Source: Daphnia pulex (Eukaryota; Arthropoda; Branchiopoda; Diplostraca; Daphniidae). Taken from it: a stretch of DNA of 64,000 bases. Numbering within the stretch: the first letter of the stretch is position 1; each line of letters begins with the position of its first letter. A program made the position numbers and the translations under genes. The notes beneath the pieces were generated by a model. The model saw only the letters and a program-made list of their open reading frames with translations. It was not told where the DNA came from and made no database searches. The stretch is taken from the NCBI RefSeq assembly GCF_021134715.1, contig NC_060018.1, positions 7,953,501-8,017,500 of the forward strand. The letters are read 5' to 3'. This document shows, in pieces, positions 13,761 through 47,660 of this stretch.

Positions 13761-13868
13761 GATTAAGTAAGAAACCTAGACACCTTAAAAATTCTCTAAT
13801 TCAATTATGCCCATTAGAAGCGTTACTGAGGACCTGTCTGATTTCCGGGAACTCCTTGAGTATATAAG
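13761..13868 (+). promoter_or_regulatory. Opsin copy 1 promoter (type I): conserved block, RCSI-like site, TATA box
   Basis: CCTAGACACCTTA block, then TAATTCAATTA at 13797-13807, which fits the TAAT-Y-N-R-ATTA palindrome of the rhodopsin conserved sequence I bound by Pax6-class homeodomains. A TATATAAG box is at 13861-13868. A type-I segment ending TTTCCGGGAACTCC lies between them. Homology with other opsin promoters starts at about 13761. Confidence 0.8.
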
Positions 13869-14106
13869 TCGCCTCTTGAGCCGTATGCCATTCGTAGCGT
13901 CAGTCGTCAAAGCACTTGCTTTCGAGGTCGCTTCTTCCGCCTATCTGCTTTCAAGCTTTACAAAGTCTTTTTCTTCCAATTCTCTTCCTGAATTCGATTG
14001 TTGTATCTTTTTGGAATCAATATCTTTTTACAGGTATGTTCAAAATGTATTAGAGCTATTTACATTTTTAAATTCTAAACTAACTTATCTGTATAAAGAT
14101 TGAAAA

Positions 14107-15547
14107 ATGGCAAACTTGACTGGTGATGCTGTTGTTGCGATGGCCCAGAAGCAGGCTTTTGATCCATGGGCTTTGCCCGATACCTTCACTCTTTATGCCT
14201 ACGCCCCAGAGGACATTCGCAGCTTTCTTCATCCTCACTGGCACTCATACAAGGCTGTGCACCCGGCATGGTATTATTTTTTGGGATTGATGTACTTGGT
14301 AATTGGCACTTGCGCTGTTGCGGGTAACGCCGTCGTCTTGAAGATCTTCAGCCGTTTCCCGGCTCTTCGAACTCCCGCCAACTTGTTGGTTATGAATTTG
14401 GCTGTGTCTGACTTCCTCCTAATGCTTGCACTTTTCCCCGAATGCGTTTACAACTTTTTCCTTGGTGGCCCATGGCGCTTTGGAGAAATGGGTTGCCAGA
14501 TCCACGCTTTCTTGGGTAAATCAAGTGAAAATTATACATTGAAAAAATTTGGCTAATTTGTTGATTATACTTCACGTGAATTAGGTGCTTGTTTCGGATA
14601 CAACCAAATCTTCACTCTGACAATGATCTCATACGATCGCTACAATGTGATTGTAAAGGGATTCAGTGGAACTCCTCTTACTTTCAGTATGATTGTGTTC
14701 TGTTTTTATCGTTAAACAAAATGAGTAAAATCGTTTTCTTATTCAGACCGCGCTGTATCCATCATCACCGTTAGCTGGATCTGGGCTTTGGGCTGGTCTA
14801 TCTGCCCATTGGTCGGCTGGGGTGCTTACGCCATGGATGGAATCATGGGAACGTATGTCATTCGGTTTATTTGGTTTTTTTTTTGAGTATTTTTTTCTAC
14901 GTTATTTCACTTTTCCAATCAACAGATGTTCTTATGACTACGTCTCCCAAAACATGAACAACAAATCCCACATTTTGGCTGCCACTTTCGCAAACTTCAT
15001 CCTGCCAATCATTGTTATTGCCGGTTGCTACTACTTCATCGTTCATGCCGTCTTCAAACACGAGGAAGAACTCCGTGCTCAGGCTAAGAAGATGAATGTT
15101 GCTTCTCTCCGTAGCAATACCGACCAACAGCAAGTTTCCGCTGAGATCCGTATTGCCAAGGTCTCCATCATGAACGTCTCGATGTGGTTGACTGCTTGGA
15201 CCCCATTCGCCGTTATCTGCATCATGGGTACCTGGGGTGATGTTTCCAAGATTACTCCTTTGGTGTCAGCCATCCCAGTCATTCTGGCCAAGACATCCTG
15301 TGCCTACAACCCACTCATCTATGCCATCTCCCATCCTAAATACCGAGAGGTAACATATTTTGTGTTCAAAATTAATGAAATACTTATAATTAATTTATCA
15401 AATGGAAATTTAATTTATTTACAGTGCCTGAAGCAAATGTATCCTTGGATGTGTATCGTTGAGGAGAAAAAATCAGTTGCTGATAACCAATCGGCCATCA
15501 CTGAAAAGACGGAAATGACTGAAACCGTCAAGTGCGAATCTGCTTAA
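14107..15547 (+). CDS. Long-wavelength-type visual opsin, copy 1
   Basis: Seven-helix photopigment that binds retinal and signals through Gq in photoreceptor membranes. Coding exons 14107-14515, 14585-14686, 14747-14852, 14926-15349 and 15425-15547 join in phase to 387 residues. A 5'-UTR exon ends at donor 14034; the acceptor AAAG at about 14098 is weak. Landmarks: N74 and D102 of helices 1 and 2, disulfide pair C130-C207, DRY at 154-156, AWTPF at 296-300, retinal lysine K328, NPLIY at 334-338, and HPKYR at 342-346, a hallmark of arthropod Gq opsins. Unusual residues are H133 and D201 at the two classical counterion positions. The third cytoplasmic loop (RAQAKKMNVASLRS) is of arthropod type. 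AATAAA lies 5 nt after the stop at 15552-15557, but an ATTAAA about 155 nt further on may be the used signal. The protein is identical to copies 2, 3 and 7. Confidence 0.95.
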
Positions 15548-16877
15548 GATAAATAAATCCATCAAATCTGGACTAGCATTCATTGGGAATGTTATCGGAC
15601 GGCTATCATACTTATTGACGACACTGGCAAACTCTAATTGACTAATGACTCTTGATTTGTGATTCCACGAATTTTCGGAGCTTTAATTTTTTTCCGTTTT
15701 TCTTATTAAAAGTTTTCGTGTACATTTGACACTCAATTTATGTTAATATTTTGTTTTTATTGGGTTGATTAATACACTGATGTTAAGAAGAGAGCATCCA
15801 CAAAAATATTTGTTTTCTCTTTAATGCAATGGATGACCGTCGCAGTTTCAATGTGATAAAAACGAATTAGAAATCATTTAACTAACTAGATGAAAGTCGC
15901 GATAGCTAAATAGCTGTAAAATCGTTCATACAGTCAAGTAGTAAATGTTATAGCTTAACGGAATTCAAGCAAGAATTTACTGATACATCTTAGGTTAGTT
16001 TTAGTTTGACATAATTTTGGCACAAATGTCTATATTTTGATTCTTTACGGTTTCTCTGTGTATGGAAATTTTCATGAATCGATTCAAATTCAGAGATGAC
16101 CTATTTTGTTAAACAAATATACTAAAATCTTGCTATTTCAATTTTCCGGTGCTCGACCAGAGAGTTGTTAGGGAACGAGAGGGTAGCGCAGAGAATCTCT
16201 AAACAAATTCTTTATTTGTTTTCGATCTAAAAGTCATATAAAGCGTCATACCAGCATTATAAAAAAATTATAAATTATTTTTGAATCTTTAATGATTAGA
16301 AAAAGTTTGTAAGAATTAGTAATTTTTATTCGGTGTATAATGTATGCATGTAGTGTACATGATCATAGAATTGTTAGGGGGAGGGGGCGTGGAGTACCTT
16401 TGGATAAATTCTGTATTTCTTCAGTAATTAAATAAATTATTGCGATATGAAGTCACACAAAGCTTCATACCTCCAATCTTATACAAAATTGAATAATTCT
16501 TTTGAATATTTCTATGATTAGAAACATTTTGTAAGAATTAGCAATCTTTTGTGTTTACACGTACAAAACATGGTTCGTTCAAAGAGGGACACTTTGAATT
16601 TTCCTAATTTCTCCTGATATTAAATACCGAATCGTTATTTCGATTTGATTCCACAAATCATATTCATGCGGAATTAAAATCCATTGTTTACGCCATTAAA
16701 ATTTCCTTCGGATTTTGCACGAGGCAGACACATTATAGATTAATCAATATTTCATTTCAGAAACGATCCTAACACAAAAAGGGTTAATTAAAAAAACTGG
16801 GTGATTGTTTGCTAAACCAAATAAAATATTCAATTGATTTTGGACAATTATGAGTAAATAGCTACTTTATTCTTACG
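15548..16877. repeat. Opsin spacer, unit 1 (3' UTR to next promoter)
   Basis: A spacer of about 1.33 kb shared nearly base for base with those after copies 2, 3, 5, 6 and, in part, 7. It carries a G-rich tract at 16377-16387 (GGGGGAGGGGG here) and no open gene. It is part of the 3.12-kb repeat unit. Confidence 0.85.
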
Positions 16878-16983
16878 GATTAAATAAGAAACCTAGACAC
16901 CTTAATAATCCTCTAATTAAATTATGACTATAAGAAACGTCACTGAGGTGCCGTCGTTTCCGGGAATTCCTTGAGTATATAAG
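16878..16983 (+). promoter_or_regulatory. Opsin copy 2 promoter (type II)
   Basis: CCTAGACACCTTA block, TAATTAAATTA at 16914-16924 (fits TAAT-Y-N-R-ATTA) and TATATAAG at 16976-16983. The intervening segment ends TTTCCGGGAATTCC, the form seen in the inner genes of each block. Confidence 0.8.
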
Positions 16984-17221
16984 TCGCCTCTTGAACCGTA
17001 TGCCATTCGTAGCGTCAGTCGTCAAAGCTCTTGCTTTCGAGGTCGCTTCTTCTGCCTATCTGCTTTCAAGCTTTACAAAGTCTTTTTCTTCCAATTCTCT
17101 TCCTGAATTCGATTGTTGTATCCTTTTGGAATCAATATCTTTTTACAGGTATGTTCAAAATGTATTAGGGCTATTTACATTTTTAAATTCTAAACTAACT
17201 TATCTGTATAAAGATTGAAAA

Positions 17222-18664
17222 ATGGCAAACTTGACTGGTGATGCTGTTGTTGCGATGGCCCAGAAGCAGGCTTTTGATCCATGGGCTTTGCCCGATACCT
17301 TCACTCTTTATGCCTACGCCCCAGAGGACATTCGCAGCTTTCTTCATCCTCACTGGCACTCATACAAGGCTGTGCACCCGGCATGGTATTATTTTTTGGG
17401 ATTGATGTACTTGGTAATTGGCACTTGCGCTGTTGCGGGTAACGCCGTCGTCTTGAAGATCTTCAGCCGTTTCCCGGCTCTTCGAACTCCCGCCAACTTG
17501 TTGGTTATGAATTTGGCTGTGTCTGACTTCCTCCTAATGCTTGCACTTTTCCCCGAATGCGTTTACAACTTTTTCCTTGGTGGCCCATGGCGCTTTGGAG
17601 AAATGGGTTGCCAGATCCACGCTTTCTTGGGTAAATCAAGTGATAATTATACATTGAAAAAATTTGGCTAATTTGTTGATTATACTTCACGTGAATTAGG
17701 TGCTTGTTTCGGATACAACCAAATCTTCACTCTGACAATGATCTCATACGATCGCTACAATGTGATTGTAAAGGGATTCAGTGGAACTCCTCTTACTTTC
17801 AGTATGATTGTGTTCTGTTTTTATCGTTAAACAAAATGAGTAAAATCGTTTTCTTATTCAGACCGCGCTGTATCCATCATCACCGTTAGCTGGATCTGGG
17901 CTTTGGGCTGGTCTATCTGCCCATTGGTCGGCTGGGGTGCTTACGCCATGGATGGAATCATGGGAACGTATGTCATTCGGTTTATTTGGTTTTCATTTTT
18001 GAGTATTTTTTTTCTACGTTATTTCACTTTTCCAATCAACAGATGTTCTTATGACTACGTCTCCCAAAACATGAACAACAAATCCCACATTTTGGCTGCC
18101 ACTTTCGCAAACTTCATCCTGCCAATCATTGTTATTGCCGGTTGCTACTACTTCATCGTTCATGCCGTCTTCAAACACGAGGAAGAACTCCGTGCTCAGG
18201 CTAAGAAGATGAATGTTGCTTCTCTCCGTAGCAATACCGACCAACAGCAAGTTTCCGCTGAGATCCGTATTGCCAAGGTCTCCATCATGAACGTCTCGAT
18301 GTGGTTGACTGCTTGGACCCCATTCGCCGTTATCTGCATCATGGGTACCTGGGGTGATGTTTCCAAGATTACTCCTTTGGTGTCAGCCATCCCAGTCATT
18401 CTGGCCAAGACATCCTGTGCCTACAACCCACTCATCTATGCCATCTCCCATCCTAAATACCGAGAGGTAACATATTTTGTGTTCAAAATTAATGAAATAC
18501 TTATAATTAATTTATCAAATGGAAATTTAATTTATTTACAGTGCCTGAAGCAAATGTATCCTTGGATGTGTATCGTTGAGGAGAAAAAATCAGTTGCTGA
18601 TAACCAATCGGCCATCACTGAAAAGACGGAAATGACTGAAACCGTCAAGTGCGAATCTGCTTAA
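17222..18664 (+). CDS. Long-wavelength-type visual opsin, copy 2
   Basis: Exons 17222-17630, 17700-17801, 17862-17967, 18043-18466 and 18542-18664, 387 residues. The protein equals copy 1. The third intron is 2 bp longer and one base in the first intron differs (GATAAT instead of GAAAAT). The start codon lies 3,115 bp after that of copy 1. Confidence 0.95.
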
Positions 18665-19998: not shown

Positions 19999-20104
19999 GA
20001 TTAAATAAGAAACCTAGACACCTTAATAATCCTCTAATTAAATTATGACTATAAGAAACGTCACTGAGGTGCCGTCGTTTCCGGGAATTCCTTGAGTATA
20101 TAAG
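19999..20104 (+). promoter_or_regulatory. Opsin copy 3 promoter (type II)
   Basis: TAATTAAATTA at 20035-20045 and TATATAAG at 20097-20104 behind the CCTAGACACCTTA block, as in copy 2. Confidence 0.8.
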
Positions 20105-20342
20105 TCGCCTCTTGAACCGTATGCCATTCGTAGCGTCAGTCGTCAAAGCTCTTGCTTTCGAGGTCGCTTCTTCTGCCTATCTGCTTTCAAGCTTTACAAA
20201 GTCTTTTTCTTCCAATTCTCTTCCTGAATTCGATTGTTGTATCCTTTTGGAATCAATATCTTTTTACAGGTATGTTCAAAATGTATTAGGGCTATTTACA
20301 TTTTTAAATTCTAAACTAACTTATCTGTATAAAGATTGAAAA

Positions 20343-21783
20343 ATGGCAAACTTGACTGGTGATGCTGTTGTTGCGATGGCCCAGAAGCAGGCTTTTGATC
20401 CATGGGCTTTGCCCGATACCTTCACTCTTTATGCCTACGCCCCAGAGGACATTCGCAGCTTTCTTCATCCTCACTGGCACTCATACAAGGCTGTGCACCC
20501 GGCATGGTATTATTTTTTGGGATTGATGTACTTGGTAATTGGCACTTGCGCTGTTGCGGGTAACGCCGTCGTCTTGAAGATCTTCAGCCGTTTCCCGGCT
20601 CTTCGAACTCCCGCCAACTTGTTGGTTATGAATTTGGCTGTGTCTGACTTCCTCCTAATGCTTGCACTTTTCCCCGAATGCGTTTACAACTTTTTCCTTG
20701 GTGGCCCATGGCGCTTTGGAGAAATGGGTTGCCAGATCCACGCTTTCTTGGGTAAATCAAGTGAAAATTATACATTGAAAAAATTTGGCTAATTTGTTGA
20801 TTATACTTCACGTGAATTAGGTGCTTGTTTCGGATACAACCAAATCTTCACTCTGACAATGATCTCATACGATCGCTACAATGTGATTGTAAAGGGATTC
20901 AGTGGAACTCCTCTTACTTTCAGTATGATTGTGTTCTGTTTTTATCGTTAAACAAAATGAGTAAAATCGTTTTCTTATTCAGACCGCGCTGTATCCATCA
21001 TCACCGTTAGCTGGATCTGGGCTTTGGGCTGGTCTATCTGCCCATTGGTCGGCTGGGGTGCTTACGCCATGGATGGAATCATGGGAACGTATGTCATTCG
21101 GTTTATTTGGTTTTTTTTTTGAGTATTTTTTTCTACGTTATTTCACTTTTCCAATCAACAGATGTTCTTATGACTACGTCTCCCAAAACATGAACAACAA
21201 ATCCCACATTTTGGCTGCCACTTTCGCAAACTTCATCCTGCCAATCATTGTTATTGCCGGTTGCTACTACTTCATCGTTCATGCCGTCTTCAAACACGAG
21301 GAAGAACTCCGTGCTCAGGCTAAGAAGATGAATGTTGCTTCTCTCCGTAGCAATACCGACCAACAGCAAGTTTCCGCTGAGATCCGTATTGCCAAGGTCT
21401 CCATCATGAACGTCTCGATGTGGTTGACTGCTTGGACCCCATTCGCCGTTATCTGCATCATGGGTACCTGGGGTGATGTTTCCAAGATTACTCCTTTGGT
21501 GTCAGCCATCCCAGTCATTCTGGCCAAGACATCCTGTGCCTACAACCCACTCATCTATGCCATCTCCCATCCTAAATACCGAGAGGTAACATATTTTGTG
21601 TTCAAAATTAATGAAATACTTATAATTAATTTATCAAATGGAAATTTAATTTATTTACAGTGCCTGAAGCAAATGTATCCTTGGATGTGTATCGTTGAGG
21701 AGAAAAAATCAGTTGCTGATAACCAATCGGCCATCACTGAAAAGACGGAAATGACTGAAACCGTCAAGTGCGAATCTGCTTAA
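20343..21783 (+). CDS. Long-wavelength-type visual opsin, copy 3
   Basis: Exons 20343-20751, 20821-20922, 20983-21088, 21162-21585 and 21661-21783, 387 residues. The protein is identical to copies 1, 2 and 7. The third intron is the same length as in copy 1. The unit is 3,121 bp from copy 2. Confidence 0.95.
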
Positions 21784-22988: not shown

Positions 22989-23633
22989 TGTAAGGATTGG
23001 CTGTCAGTGTTCTGCTTATCGGCAAAATAGTTCATTCCCCTCGTTTGTTTATTGCTCTCTCGCTGACCTCGATACAAGTCATTCCCCCCTTCTGTTTTAT
23101 GACCCACGCTAACCTTGACTCTACTGTCAATGACCGCGTTTGACCCTGTTCTGACTTGTATAAAACCCCACCCAACGCAGTTCTTCTTCAGTCAATGCTA
23201 GGCTGTTCAATCGGTCTGGTGTTGGCTCACCCCTTCTCGAGTCAATGCTAGGCTGTTCAATCGGTCTGGTGTTGGCTCACCCCTTCTCGAGTCGATGCTA
23301 GGCTGTTCAATCGGTCTGGTGTTGGCTCACCCCTTCTCGAGTCAATGCTAGGCTGTTCAATCGGTCTGGTGTTGGCTCACCCCTTCTCGAGTCAATGCTA
23401 GGCTGTTCAGTCGGTCTAGTGTTGGCTCACTCCTTCTGGCTCGCAGGATGTCACATTCTGTCGGGTTATTGTTTCTTCTTTTTCCATTGTAGTTATGTTT
23501 TTGTATTTGCCCGCCTCATGCTAGAGAAGTCTCGCGCTTCGCATGTAGGACCGTAAAGCCATGTATGTTTCTACAATAAATTCTTTACCCCGTCTATCAC
23601 CGTGTTGAAGTGAGTAACTTTTCAGTTCTCACA
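22989..23633 (+). repeat. LTR 1
   Basis: 645 bp, TG...CA. TATAAAA at 23159-23165 and an initiator-like TTCAGTC at 23187-23193 about 30 nt later mark the U3/R border. AATAAA at 23575-23580 is the likely poly(A) signal. Contains a 50-bp tandem repeat. Confidence 0.9.
23191..23440 (+). repeat. 50-bp minisatellite inside LTR 1 (5 units)
   Basis: Five units start at 23191, 23241, 23291, 23341 and 23391. Unit 3 has GTCGATG for GTCAATG and unit 5 has diverged in its second half. The array begins just after the predicted transcription start. Confidence 0.95.
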
Positions 23634-24239
23634 TGTGGTGGCAGCGATGGGATCCCAATTCACCCCCGAGGAGACTGCTACGACGCCGCTACCTTCCGAC
23701 GCCAGAACCTTGGCCAACCGCCCACCTACCACAAAGGACGGCCACATACGACTATTTCGCTTCAAGCATCACGACCCATCCCTGACAGAACAACCGAAGA
23801 TCCATTCAGAACTGACAATTCATTTAGAGTAGACTGTATGAGTAATACAGTTGAAGTATTAATCAGAGAAACAGGAATTCGTCGTAGTCCATGGAATTAT
23901 GGAAGAATGCGTTCTAGGTTTAGACGCTCTTTATCAACATAATTTTGCGATCGACGGCCACGAAAAGCGTGCCTACCGCGTTAGGGGATCTGATCAATCC
24001 AACAACCGTAGGGACCCAGTAGTGGTGATCCAGAAAAATCTCGTTTTACCTCCATTTGCAGCATGCCTAATGGAGAGCGGGGGGGACGGCGCCAAATTCC
24101 CTCCCGGCACCTCATTCTACACTCAGTTCATCGATGTTTCCCGTCAGTTATAAAAAAAAAAACTCTTTCTTTTCCAGTGTCAGTATTTGTGTTTTGTTTT
24201 GTTAGATTGCGGGACGCAATCTCCCATGGCCCCAAGGTA
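23634..24239 (+). mobile_element. Internal segment 1 of the LTR element (gag start fused to protease end)
   Basis: Starts with TGGTGGCAGCGATGG at 23636, a candidate tRNA primer-binding site; the matching tRNA is not assigned. A short frame from 23647 (MGSQFTPEETATTPLPSDAR...) ends at 23832 and is gag-like only by position. At 23899-24153 another frame holds EECVLGLDALYQHNF, resembling the C-terminal part of a retropepsin. Stops and frame changes between them show a large internal deletion. Near the 3' end is a small hairpin, GATTGCG...CGCAATC. No clear polypurine tract is seen. Confidence 0.75.
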
Positions 24240-24884
24240 TGTAAGGATTGGCTGTCAGTGTTCTGCTTATCGGCAAAATAGTTCATTCCCCTCGTTTGTT
24301 TATTGCTCTCTCGCTGACCTCGATACAAGTCATTCCCCCCTTCTGTTTTATGACCCACGCTAACCTTGACTCTACTGTCAATGACCGCGTTTGACCCTGT
24401 TCTGACTTGTATAAAACCCCACCCAACGCAGTTCTTCTTCAGTCAATGCTAGGCTGTTCAATCGGTCTGGTGTTGGCTCACCCCTTCTCGAGTCAATGCT
24501 AGGCTGTTCAATCGGTCTGGTGTTGGCTCACCCCTTCTCGAGTCGATGCTAGGCTGTTCAATCGGTCTGGTGTTGGCTCACCCCTTCTCGAGTCAATGCT
24601 AGGCTGTTCAATCGGTCTGGTGTTGGCTCACCCCTTCTCGAGTCAATGCTAGGCTGTTCAGTCGGTCTAGTGTTGGCTCACTCCTTCTGGCTCGCAGGAT
24701 GTCACATTCTGTCGGGTTATTGTTTCTTCTTTTTCCATTGTAGTTATGTTTTTGTATTTGCCCGCCTCATGCTAGAGAAGTCTCGCGCTTCGCATGTAGG
24801 ACCGTAAAGCCATGTATGTTTCTACAATAAATTCTTTACCCCGTCTATCACCGTGTTGAAGTGAGTAACTTTTCAGTTCTCACA
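24240..24884 (+). repeat. LTR 2 (shared by both internal segments)
   Basis: Appears identical to LTR 1, including its own five-unit minisatellite at 24442-24691. It serves as 3' LTR of the first and 5' LTR of the second internal segment. Confidence 0.9.
24442..24691 (+). repeat. 50-bp minisatellite inside LTR 2 (5 units)
   Basis: Same unit order as in LTR 1, including the variant third unit and the diverged fifth. Confidence 0.9.
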
Positions 24885-25490
24885 TGTGGTGGCAGCGATG
24901 GGATCCCAATTCACCCCCGAGGAGACTGCTACGACGCCGCTACCTTCCGACGCCAGAACCTTGGCCAACCGCCCACCTACCACAAAGGACGGCCACATAC
25001 GACTATTTCGCTTCAAGCATCACGACCCATCCCTGACAGAACAACCGAAGATCCATTCAGAACTGACAATTCATTTAGAGTAGACTGTATGAGTAATACA
25101 GTTGAAGTATTAATCAGAGAAACAGGAATTCGTCGTAGTCCATGGAATTATGGAAGAATGCGTTCTAGGTTTAGACGCTCTTTATCAACATAATTTTGCG
25201 ATCGACGGCCACGAAAAGCGTGCCTACCGCGTTAGGGGATCTGATCAATCCAACAACCGTAGGGACCCAGTAGTGGTGATCCAGAAAAATCTCGTTTTAC
25301 CTCCATTTGCAGCATGCCTAATGGAGAGCGGGGGGGACGGCGCCAAATTCCCTCCCGGCACCTCATTCTACACTCAGTTCATCGATGTTTCCCGTCAGTT
25401 ATAAAAAAAAAAACTCTTTCTTTTCCAGTGTCAGTATTTGTGTTTTGTTTTGTTAGATTGCGGGACGCAATCTCCCATGGCCCCAAGGTA
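24885..25490 (+). mobile_element. Internal segment 2 of the LTR element
   Basis: Exact-looking duplicate of internal segment 1, with the same deletion junction and stops. The tandem therefore copied an already deleted element. Confidence 0.85.
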
Positions 25491-26135
25491 TGTAAGGATT
25501 GGCTGTCAGTGTTCTGCTTATCGGCAAAATAGTTCATTCCCCTCGTTTGTTTATTGCTCTCTCGCTGACCTCGATACAAGTCATTCCCCCCTTCTGTTTT
25601 ATGACCCACGCTAACCTTGACTCTACTGTCAATGACCGCGTTTGACCCTGTTCTGACTTGTATAAAACCCCACCCAACGCAGTTCTTCTTCAGTCAATGC
25701 TAGGCTGTTCAATCGGTCTGGTGTTGGCTCACCCCTTCTCGAGTCAATGCTAGGCTGTTCAATCGGTCTGGTGTTGGCTCACCCCTTCTCGAGTCGATGC
25801 TAGGCTGTTCAATCGGTCTGGTGTTGGCTCACCCCTTCTCGAGTCAATGCTAGGCTGTTCAATCGGTCTGGTGTTGGCTCACCCCTTCTCGAGTCAATGC
25901 TAGGCTGTTCAGTCGGTCTAGTGTTGGCTCACTCCTTCTGGCTCGCAGGATGTCACATTCTGTCGGGTTATTGTTTCTTCTTTTTCCATTGTAGTTATGT
26001 TTTTGTATTTGCCCGCCTCATGCTAGAGAAGTCTCGCGCTTCGCATGTAGGACCGTAAAGCCATGTATGTTTCTACAATAAATTCTTTACCCCGTCTATC
26101 ACCGTGTTGAAGTGAGTAACTTTTCAGTTCTCACA
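25491..26135 (+). repeat. LTR 3
   Basis: Third 645-bp LTR, ends CACA before the AATAT target duplication. Minisatellite at 25693-25942. It ends about 130 bp upstream of the copy 4 promoter block, with its own TATA signal on the same strand. Confidence 0.9.
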
Positions 26136-26610: not shown

Positions 26611-28045
26611 ATGGCAAACTTGACTGGTGATGCTGTTGTTGCGATGGCCCAGAAGCAGGCTTTTGATCCATGGGCTTTGCCCGATACCTTCACTCTTTAT
26701 GCCTACGCCCCAGAGGACATTCGCAGCTTTCTTCATCCTCACTGGCACTCATACAAGGCTGTGCACCCGGCATGGTATTATTTTTTGGGATTGATGTACT
26801 TGGTAATTGGCACTTGCGCTGTTGCGGGTAACGCCGTCGTCTTGAAGATCTTCAGCCGTTTCCCGGCTCTTCGAACTCCCGCCAACTTGTTGGTTATGAA
26901 TTTGGCTGTGTCTGACTTCCTCCTAATGCTTGCACTTTTCCCCGAATGCGTTTACAACTTTTTCCTTGGTGGCCCATGGCGCTTTGGAGAAATGGGTTGC
27001 CAGATCCACGCTTTCTTGGGTAAATCAAGTGAAAATTATACATTGAAAAAATTTGGCTAATTTGTTGATTATACTTCACGTGAATTAGGTGCTTGTTTCG
27101 GATACAACCAAATCTTCACTCTGACAATGATCTCATACGATCGCTACAATGTGATTGTAAAGGGATTCAGTGGAACTCCTCTTACTTTCAGTATGATTGT
27201 GTTCTGTTTTTATCGTTAAACAAAATGAGTAAAATCGTTTTCTTATTCAGACCGCGCTGTATCCATCATCACCGTTAGCTGGATCTGGGCTTTGGGCTGG
27301 TCTATCTGCCCATTGGTCGGCTGGGGTGCTTACGCCATGGATGGAATCATGGGAACGTATGTCATTCGGTTTATTTGGTTTTCATTTTTGAGTATTTTTT
27401 TTCTACGTTATTTCACTTTTCCAATCAACAGATGTTCTTATGACTACGTCTCCCAAAACATGAACAACAAATCCCACATTTTGGCTGCCACTTTCGCAAA
27501 CTTCATCCTGCCAATCATTGTTATTGCCGGTTGCTACTACTTCATCGTTCAAGCTGTGTTCAAACACGAGGAAGAACTCCGTGCTCAGGCTAAGAAGATG
27601 AATGTTGCTTCTCTCCGTAGCAATACCGACCAACAGCAAGTTTCCGCTGAGATCCGTATTGCCAAGGTCTCCATCATGAACGTCTCGATGTGGTTGACTG
27701 CTTGGACCCCATTCGCCGTTATCTGCATCTTGGGTACCTGGGGTGATGTTTCCAAGATTACTCCTTTGGTGTCAGCCATCCCAGTCATTCTGGCCAAGAC
27801 ATCCTGTGCCTACAACCCACTCATCTATGCCATCTCCCATCCTAAATACCGAGAGGTAACATATTTTGTGTTCAAAATTAATGAAAAACTTAAAATCTAA
27901 ATTATCAAATGGAAATTTAATTTATTTACAGTGCCTGAAGCAGATGTATCCTTGGATGTGTATCGTTGAGGAGAAAAAATCAGTTGCTGATAACCAATCG
28001 GTCATCACTGAAAAGACAGAAATGACTGAAATTGTCAAGTGCTAA
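26611..28045 (+). CDS. Long-wavelength-type visual opsin, copy 4 (variant, shortened tail)
   Basis: Exons 26611-27019, 27089-27190, 27251-27356, 27432-27855 and 27932-28045 give 384 residues. Differences from copy 1: Q for H at 246 (end of helix 5), L for M at 306 (end of helix 6), V for A at 371, I for T at 381, and a TAA after C384 that removes the last three residues. The last intron and 3' UTR differ from copies 1-3 but resemble the relic after copy 7, so the 3' end is an older lineage. All core motifs, including K328, are kept. Confidence 0.93.
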
Positions 28046-28180
28046 TCAGCATAAGAAAATCAAAAGAAAAAACCTGGGCGAGCGTTCTTTGTGAATGGTT
28101 TCGGACGGCTATCATGCATATTGACGACACTGGCAAACTCTAATTGACCAATGACCACTGATTTGTGATTCCACGTGAAT

Positions 28181-31024: not shown

Positions 31025-32466
31025 ATGGCAAACTTGACTGGTGATGCTGTTGTTGCGATGGCCCAGAAGCAGGCTTTTGATCCATGGGCTTTGCCCGATA
31101 CCTTCACTCTTTATGCCTACGCCCCAGAGGACATTCGCAGCTTTCTTCATCCTCACTGGCACTCATACAAGGCTGTGCACCCGGCATGGTATTATTTTTT
31201 GGGATTGATGTACTTGGTAATTGGCACTTGCGCTGTTGCGGGTAACGCCGTCGTCTTGAAGATCTTCAGCCGTTTCCCGGCTCTTCGAACTCCCGCCAAC
31301 TTGTTGGTTATGAATTTGGCTGTGTCTGACTTCCTCCTAATGCTTGCACTTTTCCCCGAATGCGTTTACAACTTTTTCCTTGGTGGCCCATGGCGCTTTG
31401 GAGAAATGGGTTGCCAGATCCACGCTTTCTTGGGTAAATCAAGTGAAAATTATACATTGAAAAAATTTGGCTAATTTGTTGATTATACTTCACGTGAATT
31501 AGGTGCTTGTTTCGGATACAACCAAATCTTCACTCTGACAATGATCTCATACGATCGCTACAATGTGATTGTAAAGGGATTCAGTGGAACTCCTCTTACT
31601 TTCAGTATGATTGTGTTCTGTTTTTATCGTTAAACAAAATGAGTAAAATCGTTTTCTTATTCAGACCGCGCTGTATCCATCATCACCGTTAGCTGGATCT
31701 GGGCTTTGGGCTGGTCTATCTGCCCATTGGTTGGCTGGGGTGCTTACGCCATGGATGGAATCATGGGAACGTATGTCATTCGGTTTATTTGGTTTTTATT
31801 TTTGAGTATTTTCTTCTACGGAATTTCACTTTTCCAATCAACAGATGTTCTTATGACTACGTCTCCCAAAACATGAACAACAAATCCCACATTTTGGCTG
31901 CCACTTTCGCAAACTTCATCCTGCCAATCATTGTTATTGCCGGTTGCTACTACTTCATCGTTCAAGCCGTGTTCAAACACGAGGAAGAGCTCCGCGCTCA
32001 GGCTAAGAAGATGAATGTTGCTTCTCTCCGTAGCAATACCGACCAACAGCAAGTTTCCGCTGAGATCCGTATTGCCAAGGTCTCCATCATGAACGTCTCG
32101 ATGTGGTTGACTGCTTGGACCCCATTCGCCGTTATCTGCATCATGGGTACCTGGGGTGATGTTTCCAAGATTACTCCTTTGGTGTCAGCCATCCCAGTCA
32201 TTCTGGCCAAGACATCCTGTGCCTACAACCCACTCATCTATGCCATCTCCCATCCTAAATACCGAGAGGTAACATATTTTGTGTTCAAAATTAATGAAAT
32301 ACTTATAATTAATTTATCAAATGGAAATTTAATTTATTTACAGTGCCTGAAGCAAATGTATCCTTGGATGTGTATCGTTGAGGAGAAAAAATCAGTTGCT
32401 GATAACCAATCGGCCATCACTGAAAAGACGGAAATGACTGAAACCGTCAAGTGCGAATCTGCTTAA
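31025..32466 (+). CDS. Long-wavelength-type visual opsin, copy 5
   Basis: Exons 31025-31433, 31503-31604, 31665-31770, 31845-32268 and 32344-32466, 387 residues. It differs from copy 1 by Q for H at 246 and is identical in protein to copy 6. Exon 4 has synonymous marks (CAAGCCGTGTTC, GAGCTCCGC) shared with copy 6. Confidence 0.95.
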
Positions 32467-34142: not shown

Positions 34143-35584
34143 ATGGCAAACTTGACTGGTGATGCTGTTGTTGCGATGGCCCAGAAGCAGGCTTTTGATC
34201 CATGGGCTTTGCCCGATACCTTCACTCTTTATGCCTACGCCCCAGAGGACATTCGCAGCTTTCTTCATCCTCACTGGCACTCATACAAGGCTGTGCACCC
34301 GGCATGGTATTATTTTTTGGGATTGATGTACTTGGTAATTGGCACTTGCGCTGTTGCGGGTAACGCCGTCGTCTTGAAGATCTTCAGCCGTTTCCCGGCT
34401 CTTCGAACTCCCGCCAACTTGTTGGTTATGAATTTGGCTGTGTCTGACTTCCTCCTAATGCTTGCACTTTTCCCCGAATGCGTTTACAACTTTTTCCTTG
34501 GTGGCCCATGGCGCTTTGGAGAAATGGGTTGCCAGATCCACGCTTTCTTGGGTAAATCAAGTGAAAATTATACATTGAAAAAATTTGGCTAATTTGTTGA
34601 TTATACTTCACGTGAATTAGGTGCTTGTTTCGGATACAACCAAATCTTCACTCTGACAATGATCTCATACGATCGCTACAATGTGATTGTAAAGGGATTC
34701 AGTGGAACTCCTCTTACTTTCAGTATGATTGTGTTCTGTTTTTATCGTTAAACAAAATGAGTAAAATCGTTTTCTTATTCAGACCGCGCTGTATCCATCA
34801 TCACCGTTAGCTGGATCTGGGCTTTGGGCTGGTCTATCTGCCCATTGGTTGGCTGGGGTGCTTACGCCATGGATGGAATCATGGGAACGTATGTCATTCG
34901 GTTTATTTGGTTTTTATTTTTGAGTATTTTCTTCTACGGAATTTCACTTTTCCAATCAACAGATGTTCTTATGACTACGTCTCCCAAAACATGAACAACA
35001 AATCCCACATTTTGGCTGCCACTTTCGCAAACTTCATCCTGCCAATCATTGTTATTGCCGGTTGCTACTACTTCATCGTTCAAGCCGTGTTCAAACACGA
35101 GGAAGAGCTCCGCGCTCAGGCTAAGAAGATGAATGTTGCTTCTCTCCGTAGCAATACCGACCAACAGCAAGTTTCCGCTGAGATCCGTATTGCCAAGGTC
35201 TCCATCATGAACGTCTCGATGTGGTTGACTGCTTGGACCCCATTCGCCGTTATCTGCATCATGGGTACCTGGGGTGATGTTTCCAAGATTACTCCTTTGG
35301 TGTCAGCCATCCCAGTCATTCTGGCCAAGACATCCTGTGCCTACAACCCACTCATCTATGCCATCTCCCATCCTAAATACCGAGAGGTAACATATTTTGT
35401 GTTCAAAATTAATGAAATACTTATAATTAATTTATCAAATGGAAATTTAATTTATTTACAGTGCCTGAAGCAAATGTATCCTTGGATGTGTATCGTTGAG
35501 GAGAAAAAATCAGTTGCTGATAACCAATCGGCCATCACTGAAAAGACGGAAATGACTGAAACCGTCAAGTGCGAATCTGCTTAA
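34143..35584 (+). CDS. Long-wavelength-type visual opsin, copy 6
   Basis: Exons 34143-34551, 34621-34722, 34783-34888, 34963-35386 and 35462-35584, 387 residues, identical in protein to copy 5. Start codons are 3,118 bp apart. The introns also match copy 5, so 5 and 6 are the closest pair in block B. Confidence 0.95.
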
Positions 35585-36919: not shown

Positions 36920-37025
36920 GATTAAATAAGAAACCTAGACACCTTAATAATCCTCTAATTAAATTATGACTATAAGAAACGTCACTGAGGTGCCGTCGTT
37001 TCCGGGAATTCCTTGAGTATATAAG
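36920..37025 (+). promoter_or_regulatory. Opsin copy 7 promoter (type II)
   Basis: TAATTAAATTA at 36956-36966, TATATAAG at 37018-37025. Confidence 0.8.
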
Positions 37026-37263
37026 TCGCCTCTTGAACCGTATGCCATTCGTAGCGTCAGTCGTCAAAGCTCTTGCTTTCGAGGTCGCTTCTTCTGCCTA
37101 TCTGCTTTCAAGCTTTACAAAGTCTTTTTCTTCCAATTCTCTTCCTGAATTCGATTGTTGTATCCTTTTGGAATCAATATCTTTTTACAGGTATGTTCAA
37201 AATGTATTAGGGCTATTTACATTTTAAAATTCTAAACTAACTTATCTGTATAAAGATTGAAAA

Positions 37264-38704
37264 ATGGCAAACTTGACTGGTGATGCTGTTGTTGCGATGG
37301 CCCAGAAGCAGGCTTTTGATCCATGGGCTTTGCCCGATACCTTCACTCTTTATGCCTACGCCCCAGAGGACATTCGCAGCTTTCTTCATCCTCACTGGCA
37401 CTCATACAAGGCTGTGCACCCGGCATGGTATTATTTTTTGGGATTGATGTACTTGGTAATTGGCACTTGCGCTGTTGCGGGTAACGCCGTCGTCTTGAAG
37501 ATCTTCAGCCGTTTCCCGGCTCTTCGAACTCCCGCCAACTTGTTGGTTATGAATTTGGCTGTGTCTGACTTCCTCCTAATGCTTGCACTTTTCCCCGAAT
37601 GCGTTTACAACTTTTTCCTTGGTGGCCCATGGCGCTTTGGAGAAATGGGTTGCCAGATCCACGCTTTCTTGGGTAAATCAAGTGAAAATTATACATTGAA
37701 AAAATTTGGCTAATTTGTTGATTATACTTCACGTGAATTAGGTGCTTGTTTCGGATACAACCAAATCTTCACTCTGACAATGATCTCATACGATCGCTAC
37801 AATGTGATTGTAAAGGGATTCAGTGGAACTCCTCTTACTTTCAGTATGATTGTGTTCTGTTTTTATCGTTAAACAAAATGAGTAAAATCGTTTTCTTATT
37901 CAGACCGCGCTGTATCCATCATCACCGTTAGCTGGATCTGGGCTTTGGGCTGGTCTATCTGCCCATTGGTCGGCTGGGGTGCTTACGCCATGGATGGAAT
38001 CATGGGAACGTATGTCATTCGGTTTATTTGTTTGTTTTTTTGAGTATTTTTTTCTACGTTATTTCACTTTTCCAATCAACAGATGTTCTTATGACTACGT
38101 CTCCCAAAACATGAACAACAAATCCCACATTTTGGCTGCCACTTTCGCAAACTTCATCCTGCCAATCATTGTTATTGCCGGTTGCTACTACTTCATCGTT
38201 CATGCCGTCTTCAAACACGAGGAAGAACTCCGTGCTCAGGCTAAGAAGATGAATGTTGCTTCTCTCCGTAGCAATACCGACCAACAGCAAGTTTCCGCTG
38301 AGATCCGTATTGCCAAGGTCTCCATCATGAACGTCTCGATGTGGTTGACTGCTTGGACCCCATTCGCCGTTATCTGCATCATGGGTACCTGGGGTGATGT
38401 TTCCAAGATTACTCCTTTGGTGTCAGCCATCCCAGTCATTCTGGCCAAGACATCCTGTGCCTACAACCCACTCATCTATGCCATCTCCCATCCTAAATAC
38501 CGAGAGGTAACATATTTTGTGTTCAAAATTAATGAAATACTTATAACTAATTTATCAAATGGAAATTTAATTTATTTACAGTGCCTGAAGCAGATGTATC
38601 CTTGGATGTGTATCGTTGAGGAGAAAAAATCAGTTGCTGATAACCAATCGGCCATCACTGAAAAGACGGAAATGACTGAAACCGTCAAGTGCGAATCTGC
38701 TTAA
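37264..38704 (+). CDS. Long-wavelength-type visual opsin, copy 7
   Basis: Exons 37264-37672, 37742-37843, 37904-38009, 38083-38506 and 38582-38704, 387 residues. The protein equals copies 1-3 (H246, M306), not its block neighbours 5 and 6, which suggests gene conversion or unequal crossing-over between blocks. The downstream spacer (to about 39430) is more diverged than the others. Confidence 0.95.
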
Positions 38705-39454
38705 GATAAATCAATCAATCAAATCTGGACTAGCATTCATTGGGAATGTTATCGGACGGCTATCATACTTATTGACGACACTGGCAAACTCTAATTGACT
38801 AATGACTCTTGATTTGTGATTCCACGAATTTTCGGAGCTTTGATTTTTTCCGTTTTTCTTATTAAAAGTTTTTGTGTACATTTGACACTCAATTTATGTT
38901 AATATTCTGTTTTTATTGGGTTGATTAATACACTGAGGTTAAGAAGAGATTATATCGAGCTTCCGCAAAAATATTTTTTTCTCTTTTATGCAATGGATGA
39001 CCGTCGCAGTTTCAATATGATAAAAAAACGAAGTAGAAATAGTTTTTATAATTAGATTAAAGTCGTGATACCTAAATAGCTGTAAAACTCATATAGTCAT
39101 GGAGTAATATATAGTTTAACGGAATTCAAGCAAGAATTTAAAGATACATCTTAGGTTACTTTGTTTGACATATTTTTGGCACAAATGTCTATATTTTGAT
39201 TCTTTACGGTTTCTCTGTGTATGGAAATTTTCAGGAATCGATTCAAATTCAGAGATAACCTATTTTGTTAAACAAATATACTAAAATCTTGCTATTTCAA
39301 TTTTCCGGTGCGTGACCAGAGAGTTGTTAGGGAACGAGAGGGTAGCGCAGAGAAAATCTAAACAAATTCTTTATGTCTTTTGCGACCTTAAGTCACATAA
39401 AGCTTCATACCTGCATTATAAAAAAATACAAATTCTTTTGGAATCTTTGTGATG

Positions 39455-39670
39455 ATGATCATCGAAGAGAAAAAAAAAGTTGCTGATAACCAATCGGTCA
39501 TCACTGAAAAGACGGAAATGAATGAATTCGTCAAGTGTGAATCTGCATAAGAAAAAGAAAAGAATTAAACAGAGACGAATATTTTTTAATGGTATCGGAC
39601 GGCTATCATGCTTATTAAAAACACTGGCCAACTCTAATTGACTAATGACCCTTAATTTCTGATTCCAAGA
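39455..39670 (+). pseudogene. Relic of an opsin last exon and 3' UTR
   Basis: About 95 bp (39455-39549) match the end of the opsin last exon: the Glu/Lys run, VADNQSVITEKTEM and a stop. It is followed by 3'-UTR sequence shared with the other copies (TATCGGACGGCTATCATGC). No upstream exons are present. The TGCATAAGAAAA stop context resembles copy 4 (AGCATAAGAAAA) rather than copies 1-3. It is a leftover from unequal crossing-over. Confidence 0.8.
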
Positions 39671-42600: not shown

Positions 42601-42830
42601 AATTATTCGAATCGATCCGATCATGGTAGTTTTGGGATATTGTTCGTTTGATCAAATCTTCACTCAGTGATCGCTAATCGATCTGGCGATTGGAGCGGAT
42701 ATTGAACGCGCTCTTTCAAACTCTGCATTCATTCATAAAAATTTGAACGAGAAATCGACATAATTAATTTAACCAAAGAACCTTTAAATTCGCTTCCCGT
42801 AACATTGTTGCTGTTAATAGCTATTTTAGG
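39671..42830. other. Spacer between opsin blocks B and C
   Basis: About 3.2 kb of AT-rich sequence. It holds one copy of a dispersed repeat (40205-40380) and a C-run plus purine-rich stretch near 42000-42130. No gene is recognised. Confidence 0.5.
40205..40380 (+). repeat. Dispersed repeat, copy 1
   Basis: Shares a long diverged match with the minus strand near 58950-59130: TTGGAATCG.CTTGCGATTCTG, then CCGGATTACGATCC, in the same order and spacing. The class is unknown. It contains short palindromes and no coding frame. Confidence 0.6.
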
Positions 42831-42938
42831 GATTAAAGAAGAAACCTAGACACCTTAAAAATTCTCTAATTCAATTAAGACCATTAGAAGCGTCACTGAG
42901 GAATTGTCTGATTTCCGGGAACTCCTTGAGTATATAAG
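42831..42938 (+). promoter_or_regulatory. Opsin copy 8 promoter (type I)
   Basis: CCTAGACACCTTA block, TAATTCAATTA at 42867-42877, TTTCCGGGAACTCC, TATATAAG at 42931-42938. Confidence 0.8.
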
Positions 42939-43176
42939 TCGCCTCCCGAGCCATATTCCATTCGTAGCGTCAGTCGTCAAAGCTCTTGCTTTCGAGGTCG
43001 CTTCTTCTGCCTATCTGCTTTCAAGCTTTACAAAGTCTTTTTCTCCCAGTTCTCTTCTTGAATTCGATTGTTGTATCCTTTTGGAATCAATATCTTTTTA
43101 CAGGTATGTTCAAAATGTATTAGGGCCATTTACATTTTTTTATTCTAAACTAACTTATCTGTACATAGATTGAAAA

Positions 43177-44618
43177 ATGGCAAATTTGACTGGTGATGCT
43201 GTTGTTGCGATGGCCCAGAAGCAGGCTTTTGATCCATGGGCTTTGCCCGATACCTTCACTCTCTATGCCTACGCCCCAGAGGACATTCGCAGCTTTCTTC
43301 ATCCTCACTGGCACTCATACAAGGCTCTGCACCCGGCATGGTATTATTTTTTGGGATTAATGTACTTGATTATTGGCACTTGCGCTGTTGCGGGTAACGC
43401 CGTCGTCTTGAAGATCTTCAGCCGTTTCCCGGCTCTTCGAACTCCCGCCAACTTGTTGGTTATGAATTTGGCTGTGTCTGACTTCCTCCTAATGCTTGCA
43501 CTTTTCCCCGAATGCGTTTACAACTTTTTCCTTGGTGGCCCATGGCGCTTTGGAGAAATGGGTTGCCAGATCCACGCTTTCTTGGGTAAATCCAGTGAAA
43601 ATTATACATTAAAAAAATTTGGCTAATTTGTTGAACATACTTTACGTGAATTAGGTGCTTGTTTCGGATACAACCAAATCTTCACTCTGACAATGATCTC
43701 ATACGATCGCTACAATGTGATTGTAAAGGGATTCAGTGGAACTCCTCTTACTTTCAGTATGATTGTGTTCTGTTTTTATCGTTAAACAAAATGAGTAAAA
43801 TCGTTTTCTTATTCAGACCGCGCTGTATCCATCATCACCGTTAGCTGGATCTGGGCTTTGGGCTGGTCTATCTGCCCATTGGTCGGCTGGGGTGCTTACG
43901 CCATGGATGGAATCATGGGAACGTAAGTCATTCAGTTTATTCGGTTTTTATTTTTTTTAGTATTTTCCTCTATAAAATTTCACTTTTCCAATCAACAGAT
44001 GTTCTTATGACTACGTCTCCCAAAACATGAACAACAAATCCCACATTTTGGCTGCCACTTTCGCAAACTTCATCCTGCCAATCATTGTTATTGCCGGTTG
44101 CTACTACTTCATCGTTCATGCCGTGTTCAAACACGAGGAAGAGCTCCGCGCTCAGGCTAAGAAGATGAATGTTGCTTCTCTCCGTAGCAATACCGACCAA
44201 CAGCAAGTGTCCGCCGAGATCCGTATTGCCAAGGTCTCCATCATGAACGTTTCGATGTGGTTGACTGCTTGGACCCCATTCGCCGTTATTTGCATCGTTG
44301 GTACCTGGGGTGATGTTTCCAAGATTACTCCATTGGTTTCAGCCATTCCAGTCATTCTGGCCAAGACATCCTGTGCCTACAACCCACTCATCTATGCCAT
44401 CTCCCATCCTAAATACCGAGAGGTAACTTGTTTCATTCAAAGTATTTGTAATATTTGTAACTTATTTACCAAATGGACATTTCTGTTATTTATAGTGCCT
44501 GAAGCAGATGTTCCCTTGGATGTGTATCGTTGAGGAGAAAAAAACAGTGGTTGATAACCAATCAGTCATCACTGAAAAGACGGAAATGACTGAAACTGTC
44601 AAGTCCGAATCTGCCTAA
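43177..44618 (+). CDS. Long-wavelength-type visual opsin, copy 8 (most divergent protein)
   Basis: Exons 43177-43585, 43655-43756, 43817-43922, 43999-44422 and 44496-44618, 387 residues. Differences from copy 1 include L for V51, I for V65, V for M306, F for Y353, T for S364, V for A366, V for A371 and S for C384. Introns 1, 3 and 4 differ clearly from the other copies, whereas exon 2, intron 2 and exon 3 are the same as in copy 1. It is followed tail to tail by copy 9. Confidence 0.95.
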
Positions 44619-44984
44619 GATAAATAAATCGATCAAATCTGGACTAGCATTCATTGGGAATGTTATCGGACGGCTATCATACTTATTGACGACACTGGCA
44701 AACTCTAATTGACTAATGACCCTTGATTTGTGATTCCACGAGTTTTAAAAGCTTGGGTTTGGGTTATGCTTATTATGTTATTTTATTTGTGTCAAATGTA
44801 CACTCCTCTTTTGTTTTGTTTTTTTTCTCGTTTGAAATTTGTTTCAAAATACATTTGGGTATGGAAGAAAACCGAAATTATTTCTTATTTTCTCAAATTT
44901 TGTTCTGATGTTTTAACAGCAAAAATAGATAGTTGCAAGTTTATTGTTGGTAAACATGATGTCAATCCAGTTTCTTAACTAGTG

Positions 44985-45560: not shown

Positions 45561-45869
45561 TTCATTAATTTAAAAATGCATTTTTTTTACAAAATTCATA
45601 GGAAAGATTCTGCCTGGGATTTCTTATGTACTCAAATGTATTTTGAAAGAATTTCAAACGAGAAAAAAACAAAACAAAAGAGGAGTGTACATTTGACACA
45701 AATAAAATAACATAATAAGCATAACCCAAACCCAAGCTTTCAAAACTCGTGGAATCACAAATCAAGGGTCATTAGTCAATTAGAGTTTGCCAGTGTCGTC
45801 AATAAGTATGATAGCCGTCCGATAACATTCCCAATGAATGCTAGTCCAGATTTGATCGATTTATTTATC

Positions 45870-47312
45870 TTAGGCAGATTCGGACTTGACAGTTTCAGTC
45901 ATTTCCGTCTTTTCAGTGATGACTGATTGGTTATCAACCACTGTTTTTTTCTCCTCAACGATACACATCCAAGGGAACATCTGCTTCAGGCACTATAAAT
46001 AACAGAAATGTCCATTTGGTAAATAAGTTACAAATATTACAAATACTTTGAATGAAACAAGTTACCTCTCGGTATTTAGGATGGGAGATGGCATAGATGA
46101 GTGGGTTGTAGGCACAGGATGTCTTGGCCAGAATGACTGGAATGGCTGAAACCAATGGAGTAATCTTGGAAACATCACCCCAGGTACCAACGATGCAAAT
46201 AACGGCGAATGGGGTCCAAGCAGTCAACCACATCGAAACGTTCATGATGGAGACCTTGGCAATACGGATCTCGGCGGACACTTGCTGTTGGTCGGTATTG
46301 CTACGGAGAGAAGCAACATTCATCTTCTTAGCCTGAGCGCGGAGCTCTTCCTCGTGTTTGAACACGGCATGAACGATGAAGTAGTAGCAACCGGCAATAA
46401 CAATGATTGGCAGGATGAAGTTTGCGAAAGTGGCAGCCAAAATGTGGGATTTGTTGTTCATGTTTTGGGAGACGTAGTCATAAGAACATCTGTTGATTGG
46501 AAAAGTGAAATTTTATAGAGGAAAATACTAAAAAAAAATAAAAACCGAATAAACTGAATGACTTACGTTCCCATGATTCCATCCATGGCGTAAGCACCCC
46601 AGCCGACCAATGGGCAGATAGACCAGCCCAAAGCCCAGATCCAGCTAACGGTGATGATGGATACAGCGCGGTCTGAATAAGAAAACGATTTTACTCATTT
46701 TGTTTAACGATAAAAACAGAACACAATCATACTGAAAGTAAGAGGAGTTCCACTGAATCCCTTTACAATCACATTGTAGCGATCGTATGAGATCATTGTC
46801 AGAGTGAAGATTTGGTTGTATCCGAAACAAGCACCTAATTCACGTAAAGTATGTTCAACAAATTAGCCAAATTTTTTTAATGTATAATTTTCACTGGATT
46901 TACCCAAGAAAGCGTGGATCTGGCAACCCATTTCTCCAAAGCGCCATGGGCCACCAAGGAAAAAGTTGTAAACGCATTCGGGGAAAAGTGCAAGCATTAG
47001 GAGGAAGTCAGACACAGCCAAATTCATAACCAACAAGTTGGCGGGAGTTCGAAGAGCCGGGAAACGGCTGAAGATCTTCAAGACGACGGCGTTACCCGCA
47101 ACAGCGCAAGTGCCAATAATCAAGTACATTAATCCCAAAAAATAATACCATGCCGGGTGCAGAGCCTTGTATGAGTGCCAGTGAGGATGAAGAAAGCTGC
47201 GAATGTCCTCTGGGGCGTAGGCATAGAGAGTGAAGGTATCGGGCAAAGCCCATGGATCAAAAGCCTGCTTCTGGGCCATCGCAACAACAGCATCACCAGT
47301 CAAATTTGCCAT
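45870..47312 (-). CDS. Long-wavelength-type visual opsin, copy 9 (inverted)
   Basis: Minus-strand exons 46904-47312, 46733-46834, 46567-46672, 46066-46489 and 45870-45992, 387 residues, protein identical to copy 8. The 5'-UTR exon has its donor at 47385/47386. The body and 5' UTR match copy 8, but the promoter is of type II like copies 2-4, 6 and 7, so this gene looks chimeric. It is the only opsin on the minus strand. Confidence 0.95.
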
Positions 47313-47550
47313 TTTTCAATCTATGTACAGATAAGTTAGTTTAGAATAAAAAAATGTAAATGGCCCTAATACATTTTGAACATACCTGTAAAAAGATATT
47401 GATTCCAAAAGGATACAACAATCGAATTCAAGAAGAGAACTGGGAGAAAAAGACTTTGTAAAGCTTGAAAGCAGATAGGCAGAAGAAGCGACCTCGAAAG
47501 CAAGAGCTTAGACGACTGACGCTACGAATGGCATACGGTTCAAGAGGTAA

Positions 47551-47660
47551 CTTATATACTCAAGGAGTTCCCGGAAACGACGGTACCTTAGTGACGCCTG
47601 TAATGGACATAATTAAATTAGAGGATTTGTAAGGTGTCTAGGTTTCTTACTTCTTTAATC
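47551..47660 (-). promoter_or_regulatory. Opsin copy 9 promoter (type II-like)
   Basis: Read on the minus strand: CCTAGACACCTTA, TAATTTAATTA (47610-47620), CGTCGTTTCCGGGAACTCC and TATATAAG (47551-47558). Downstream bases CTTGAACCGTATGCC match the inner-gene promoters and not copy 8. Confidence 0.8.

Follow-up and report, generated by a model that had tools for sequence, protein, structure and literature searches.

A tandem and inverted array of nine long-wavelength-type opsin genes in Daphnia pulex that probably evolves in concert

The window analyzed here, a stretch of 64,000 nucleotides of the Daphnia pulex genome (contig NC_060018.1, designated C2, positions 7953501-8017500), contains nine copies (c1-c9) of a long-wavelength-type opsin gene between 13.75 and 47.69 kb, as delimited by self-comparison of the window, with eight copies on the plus strand and one on the minus strand. 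The most probable explanation, to which we assign a probability of roughly 0.78, is that this tandem and inverted array of rhabdomeric opsins, perhaps belonging to the LOPB clade, is evolving in concert. Several loci would then be older duplicates, of which the outer flanks, the tail of c4 and a relic of a further copy keep about 5-18% divergence, while their gene bodies would have been overwritten recently, among the direct copies c1-c7 by unequal crossing-over and/or gene conversion, and in the inverted copies c8 and c9 by conversion between the two. Short tracts were probably also exchanged between c8/c9 and the tandem copies. The overwriting would fade near the ends of common homology, leaving the promoters and spacers at the edges diverged, and each copy retains a core promoter of its own.

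Mosaic divergence along the nine copies

The coding regions, the arms of the inverted repeat and the relic are located in the window as follows; positions within a unit are counted from the start codon.

14107..15547, plus strand: c1, five coding exons; type 1 protein; has its own 5' flank type
17222..18664, plus strand: c2; coding sequence the same as in c1 and c3
20343..21783, plus strand: c3; coding sequence the same as in c1 and c2
26611..28054, plus strand: c4, aligned to the full frame; early stop, with the end of exon 5 and the 3' flank diverged
31025..32466, plus strand: c5; H246Q; 5' flank of its own type
34143..35584, plus strand: c6; H246Q
37264..38704, plus strand: c7; protein type 1; 3' spacer 8% diverged
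39443..39667, plus strand: relic, consisting of the 3' end of another opsin copy; identity of about 82% to c2 and to the 3' end of c4
43177..44618, plus strand: c8, inverted partner of c9
45870..47312, minus strand: c9; coding sequence the same as in c8
42805..44873, plus strand: left arm of the inverted repeat, holding c8, 98.0% identical to the right arm (self-comparison)
45617..47686, minus strand: right arm, holding c9, with 743 bp between the arms (self-comparison)

The clearest case of apparent overwriting in the array is provided by c8 and c9, which are oriented tail to tail. In a pairwise comparison with gaps counted, these copies differ in 32 columns from -367 to -198 and in 9 columns from 1570 to 1694, whereas the interval from -197 to 1569 contains zero substitutions and a single 1-base indel (774). 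When substitutions alone were counted in the multiple alignment, the differences amounted to 22/140 from -345 to -206, 1/129 from -205 to -77, none in any block between -76 and 1569, and 6/119 from 1570 to 1690, and Fisher tests of the two flanks against 0/~1,767 in the body gave p=2e-26 (22/140) and p=6e-8 (6/119). The run test on 157 variable sites found a c8-c9 run of 109 sites, with 0/2000 shuffles. The mosaic that marks an array evolving in concert, namely like bodies with diverged homologous flanks on both sides, was observed in this pair. Identical bodies between older, diverged flanks point to gene conversion, since crossing-over between inverted copies would invert the intervening piece without homogenizing the copies. 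The 5' flank of c8 is nearer to that of c1 (11/~140) than to that of c9 (22), and the topology of the 5' flanks is suggestive of a grouping of c9 with the c2 type (87/90), though the likelihood test described below did not reject a c8+c9 pair (p=0.083).

Among the direct copies, c1, c2, c3, c5 and c6 differ by 0-0.43% in coding sequence, 0-1.8% in introns and 0-0.65% in the 3' spacer. The original prediction, made from the letters of the window, that introns and spacers are almost identical therefore describes these five copies well; it fails for the introns of c8/c9, which are 11.6-13.8% from the other seven copies (coding 2.4-2.7%; synonymous divergence dS ~0.08, nonsynonymous divergence dN ~0.01), for the 5' flanks of c1, c5, c8 and c9, each 7.7-13.9% from the type common to c2, c3, c4, c6 and c7 (internal difference 0-0.25%), for the spacer of c7 (8.0-8.2%) and for the 3' flank of c4 (14.9-16.5%). 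Where each of the two runs of direct units begins, c1 and c5 are diverged in the 5' flank; where each run ends, c4 and c7 are diverged on the 3' side; the inner units have both in common. This edge pattern looks like the product of unequal crossing-over in a tandem array, although conversion could yield the same. Across the 2,639 positions between the start codon and the end of the spacer, c5 and c6 show 0 substitutions, and the pair looks like the outcome of unequal crossing-over or copying in the very recent past. The further proposal, which offered very recent amplification and strong concerted evolution as alternatives, found support on both counts, albeit in different pairs, with c5/c6 suggesting a recent event and c8/c9 conversion between diverged flanks.

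The end of c4 may have a separate history. Exon 5 differs from that of c3 at eight positions, of which seven lie at 1390 or beyond, and 20/121 differences follow in the 3' flank; the 3' end of c4 is 82% identical to the relic over 229 bp. Because the exon 5 differences cluster at the end and run into the diverged 3' flank, the altered C terminus and the early stop of c4 more likely survive from an older copy than stem from new mutation of protein type 1. An AATAAA signal lies just past the stop (about +1445) in c1-c3, c5, c6, c8 and c9. It was not found just past the stop in c4, which was searched to about +1565, nor in c7, and the transcript ends of these two copies may differ from those of the other copies.

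Exchange between c8/c9 and the tandem copies is suggested by smaller segments. At 947, 965 and 971, all within 25 bp, c5/c6 and c8/c9 share silent changes where c10, a tenth copy on contig C5, has the c1 state; the change at 947 also occurs in c4. A clean c8/c9-type conversion tract from 789 to 971 in c5/c6 was considered and dropped because positions 790, 795, 796 and 797 mismatch, and the claim is limited to 947-971. Between c3 and c8, a 282-bp stretch covering exon 2, intron 2 and exon 3 is free of differences (p=0.004, 5000 shuffles).

An insertion resembling a long terminal repeat (LTR) element lies between c3 and c4:

22989..26134, plus strand: LTR-like insertion, detected by self-comparison, with TG...CA ends and an ATAT overlap at the target

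This insertion of about 3.1 kb has the order terminal-internal-terminal-internal-terminal with a period of 1251 and 100% identical repeats, and interrupts, with a 4-bp overlap, a spacer that runs unbroken between c2 and c3. The arrangement indicates that c3 and c4 were formerly ordinary neighbors, and the insertion is probably younger than the array. Pieces related to it gave at least 78 matches in the genome (133,188,837 bases in 13 contigs; counts from genome searches are lower bounds throughout), including those of the window itself. Each of its three terminal pieces carries a 50-bp minisatellite of 5.1 copies.

Proteins and promoters

All nine copies align with coding exons of 409, 102, 106, 424 and 123 nt, with a GT donor and an AG acceptor at all four coding introns, and each has an intron in the 5' untranslated region (UTR). 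The reading frame comprises 387 codons plus stop, and no internal stop occurs in the array except in c4, where it comes three codons early (E385*). The retinal lysine corresponds to Lys328 of the c1 protein and all other copies agree with c1 at this site, so the expectation of nine genes that keep every splice site and this residue was confirmed by alignment in 9/9 copies, with the early stop of c4 as a qualification. The predicted four protein types were likewise recovered with the same membership from the coding-sequence alignment: c1, c2, c3 and c7; c5 and c6 (H246Q); c4; and c8 and c9 (8 changes). At the nucleotide level there are five coding-sequence groups, c7 being one silent base away from c1-c3.

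The c1 protein has the DRY motif at 154 and NPLIY at 334; a 7tm_1 domain was found in exon 1, and the best matches in the PDB are Kumopsin1 of a jumping spider (E 1.4e-90) and squid rhodopsin. With a seven-transmembrane architecture, retinal lysine, DRY and NPxxY, the array genes are identified from their sequence as rhabdomeric opsins of the long-wavelength type. Variable residues are found at 51, 65, 246, 306 and 353 and in the C-terminal tail at 364-385, none of them being Lys328 or part of DRY or NPxxY, and we infer that they leave absorption unchanged. Comparison of c1 with c10 (dN 0.015, dS 0.38, dN/dS ~0.04) indicates that the opsin protein is under strong purifying constraint.

A core promoter with an RCSI/P3-like site (RCSI, rhodopsin conserved sequence I), a TATA box and an initiator was found in 9/9 copies. 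The sequence TAATTNAATTA starts 307-310 bp upstream of the start codon in nine of nine copies, and TATATAAGT and TCAGTCGTC lie at -246 and -207, respectively, in all of them.

13797..13807, plus strand: RCSI/P3-like site of c1, found by pattern match, with similar spacing in 9/9 copies
Starts at 16914, 20035, 26303, 30718, 33835, 36956 and 42867, plus strand: RCSI/P3-like sites of c2-c8
47610..47620, minus strand: RCSI/P3-like site of c9
13861..13869, plus strand: TATATAAGT box of c1
Starts at 16976, 20097, 26365, 30779, 33897, 37018 and 42931, plus strand: TATATAAGT boxes of c2-c8
47550..47558, minus strand: TATATAAGT box of c9

Against an expectation of 1.33, the window contains 11 occurrences of the RCSI/P3 pattern, nine of which are at the array promoters. 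The 5' flanks fall into five promoter types, those of c1, c5, c8 and c9 and the one common to c2, c3, c4, c6 and c7. In c5 the homogenized region begins near the initiator, with 34/139 differences before -205 and then 0/129, and the edge in c8/c9 likewise lies near the initiator; that of c1 is more gradual (15/140, 3/129, 1/73, then 0 over the coding region). The simplest reason for the position of the edge is that the units share homology only as far as about -372 to -343 and that conversion grows infrequent where homology runs out. The block TTCCGGGAAYTCCTTGAGTATATAAGT (13843-13869 in the window and the same place in other copies) is kept in all nine promoters amid diverged sequence, and TTCCGGGAA resembles a STAT-type palindrome.

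Judging from these promoters, all nine copies are probably expressed in photoreceptors and supply nearly one pigment. A dosage benefit for one pigment, as was suggested earlier, is plausible, being compatible with nine kept core promoters and the unchanged key residues. It is conceivable, though unlikely, that the array serves as a device joining one pigment to many promoters, in which conversion would hold the pigment constant and the five promoter types, having the RCSI-TATA core in common, would evolve separately and deploy that pigment at different places or times (e.g. in compound eye, ocellus and embryo), with selection favoring tracts that stop near the transcription start.

Clade assignment and rival explanations

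In D. pulex, 27 rhabdomeric opsin paralogs have been annotated, 23 of them long-wavelength, and the accessible part of the source reports RCSI motifs, among the long-wavelength, ultraviolet and blue opsins, only upstream of LOPB opsins (PMC4084641). It further states that Daphnia Pph13 binds such RCSI sites and that clade-B probes give signal in the eye and the ocellus of D. magna (PMC4084641). An RCSI-like TAATNNNATTA within 1 kb upstream, a feature of LOPB opsins, was found in 9/9 copies, which, together with these reports, suggests that the array perhaps belongs to the LOPB clade and is used in photoreceptors. LOPA was dropped as a clade name because RCSI sites were reported solely upstream of LOPB.

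A search of the genome with the unit gave at least 10 matches, namely the nine array places and one at 83%, covering most of the unit, on contig C5:

C5:3702248-3703678: c10, tenth copy of the array opsin, found by genome search, 83% identical over query bases 135-1892 of 1901

This copy has a stop at codon 14 in an otherwise strongly conserved protein and may represent a null of recent origin, a segregating allele or an error in the assembly. Its introns are 49-54% identical to those of c1, except intron 4 (71%), and its 5'-UTR exon is 87% identical. A neighboring cluster on C5 holds other long-wavelength opsins, with at least seven copies seen by protein search; the five compared in the exon-4 region are 71.9-88.6% identical, and tandem arrangement alone therefore does not homogenize opsin copies. 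A 752-bp direct repeat of 100% identity (C5:3666057-3666808 and 3672335-3673086) lies beside this cluster.

A plain recent amplification, in which nine young duplicates would have arisen without conversion, might account for the identical coding sequences of c1, c2 and c3, the absence of substitutions across gene and spacer in c5/c6 and the 99.74% identity of c2 and c3 over 3.1 kb. It is already contradicted for c8/c9, where the same bodies stand between homologous flanks differing at 22/140 and 6/119, and fits poorly with the c4 tail and the c1, c5 and c7 flanks, which are ~8-17% diverged although the tandem bodies are ~0-1% apart; as an explanation of the whole array it appears improbable. 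Selection alone would be expected to keep the copies alike if constraint were strong, as the c1-c10 ratio and the conserved 5'-UTR exon (87%) indicate it to be, but within c1-c3, c5/c6 and c8/c9 there are no synonymous differences and the introns differ by 0-0.72%, and the introns of c10 are only 48-71% identical to those of c1 and c8. Intron constraint confined to sub-groups, which such an explanation would require, was not seen, and this possibility hardly deserves credence. An assembly artefact, by which the c1-c3 block (13754-22525) and the c5-c7 block (30675-39448) would be haplotypes placed in tandem, or the copy number would be otherwise wrong, draws on the 98.35% identity of the two blocks, which could be an allelic difference. 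The block edges differ, however, with the 5' flanks of c1 and c5 being 11.4% apart, c3 is followed by the insertion and c4 while c7 is followed by the relic, and the window contains no N; this explanation, too, is quite improbable. A clean duplication of a three-gene block from c1-c3 to c5-c7 was dropped, given the same 11.4% between the c1 and c5 flanks and a c7 coding sequence nearer to c1-c3 than to c5/c6.

Several observations weigh against concerted evolution of an LOPB array. Crossing-over and conversion are indistinguishable for direct copies, and all comparisons are among paralogs of one genome, whereas the standard criterion for concerted evolution is that paralogs be closer to one another than orthologs are between species. 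The run test on nine copies, which treats sites as exchangeable and gives uncorrected p values, yielded 0/2000 shuffles in 18/36 pairs but no significance in four (c2-c3 0.50, c3-c7 0.45, c2-c7 0.23, c3-c6 0.055), nor in 5/10 pairs of a five-copy set of full units and 1/15 of a six-copy set. In the approximately unbiased test on the 5' flank (5 rows, 142 columns), a c8+c9 clade remained acceptable (p=0.083). The coding identity of c1-c3 is no greater than their spacers predict; these differ by merely 0.09-0.56%, few or no synonymous differences are therefore expected, and special selection behind that identity was dropped as an explanation. As for the clade, none of the nine RCSI-like sites has the exact CTAATTG half site; they read CTAATTC, CTAATTA or CTAATTT with ATAATT or TTAATT as the other half, although the accessible text gives that half-site definition for Pph13 sites and not for the LOPB clade (PMC4084641). 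The 50 kb around the C5 cluster contain four RCSI-like matches, including one ~0.4 kb upstream of a copy (3676490), and the 9 + 1 copies disagree with the at least 14 LOPB names in the old assembly.

Related systems and surrounding features

Conversion in arthropsins and a recent expansion of long-wavelength opsins were reportedly described in a 2017 paper on Daphnia opsins. The kind of array found here is already known from Drosophila Amy and Hsp70 genes, and the present one is an instructive further example of it; what is new is the tract map and the pattern of a near-single pigment behind five promoter types. Among the closest known systems, the LOPA and LOPB opsins of D. pulex share the large expansion of long-wavelength rhabdomeric opsins and the RCSI-like site upstream, but differ in the number of LOPB names and in the half site noted above, and no map of conversion tracts was found in the accessible part of that source (PMC4084641). 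According to the accessible text on Drosophila Amy-p and Amy-d, that inverted pair resembles c8/c9 in that the coding sequences evolve in concert and the flanks independently, whereas the identical stretch of c8/c9 takes in introns and UTRs and has seven direct copies next to it (PMC3924832). The hsp70 genes of Drosophila and Stratiomys are also clustered, with inverted copies and homogenized bodies, and their homogeneity is stated to drop away from the coding sequence; they differ in being heat-shock genes and in that conversion was shown there by shared polymorphisms (accessible parts of PMC3924832, PMC3071340). In poeciliid fishes, arrays of duplicated long-wavelength-sensitive (LWS) opsins include a tail-to-tail pair, and conversion among the LWS opsins was suggested; they comprise few copies of named subtypes (S180, P180, A180) (PMC3087554, accessible part). 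The array copies c8/c9 are tail to tail and identical in coding sequence. In the open-licence literature searched, including the accessible parts of PMC12102780 and PMC11754708, no description of the tracts of this array was found; the main 2011 and 2017 papers on Daphnia opsins were outside this search.

If conversion indeed holds part of the long-wavelength set to a single pigment, the number of genes would overstate that of color channels, and copy-resolved expression would have to be read from UTRs and promoters, where differences are present in c1 at -193, -169 and -99, in c9 at -198 and in the 5' UTR of c8/c9. Coding polymorphisms are unable to separate c1/c2/c3, c5/c6 or c8/c9 in RNA counts because these coding sequences are identical. 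The genome also offers a natural comparison between homogenized tandem opsins on C2 and much less alike ones on C5.

A domain scan gave matches in 4/6 stretches, one of these being opsin. Reading frames with a WD40_2 domain are located upstream of the array (4227-6412, plus strand), and a C-terminal region of acid sphingomyelinase is located downstream (50527-50949, minus strand).

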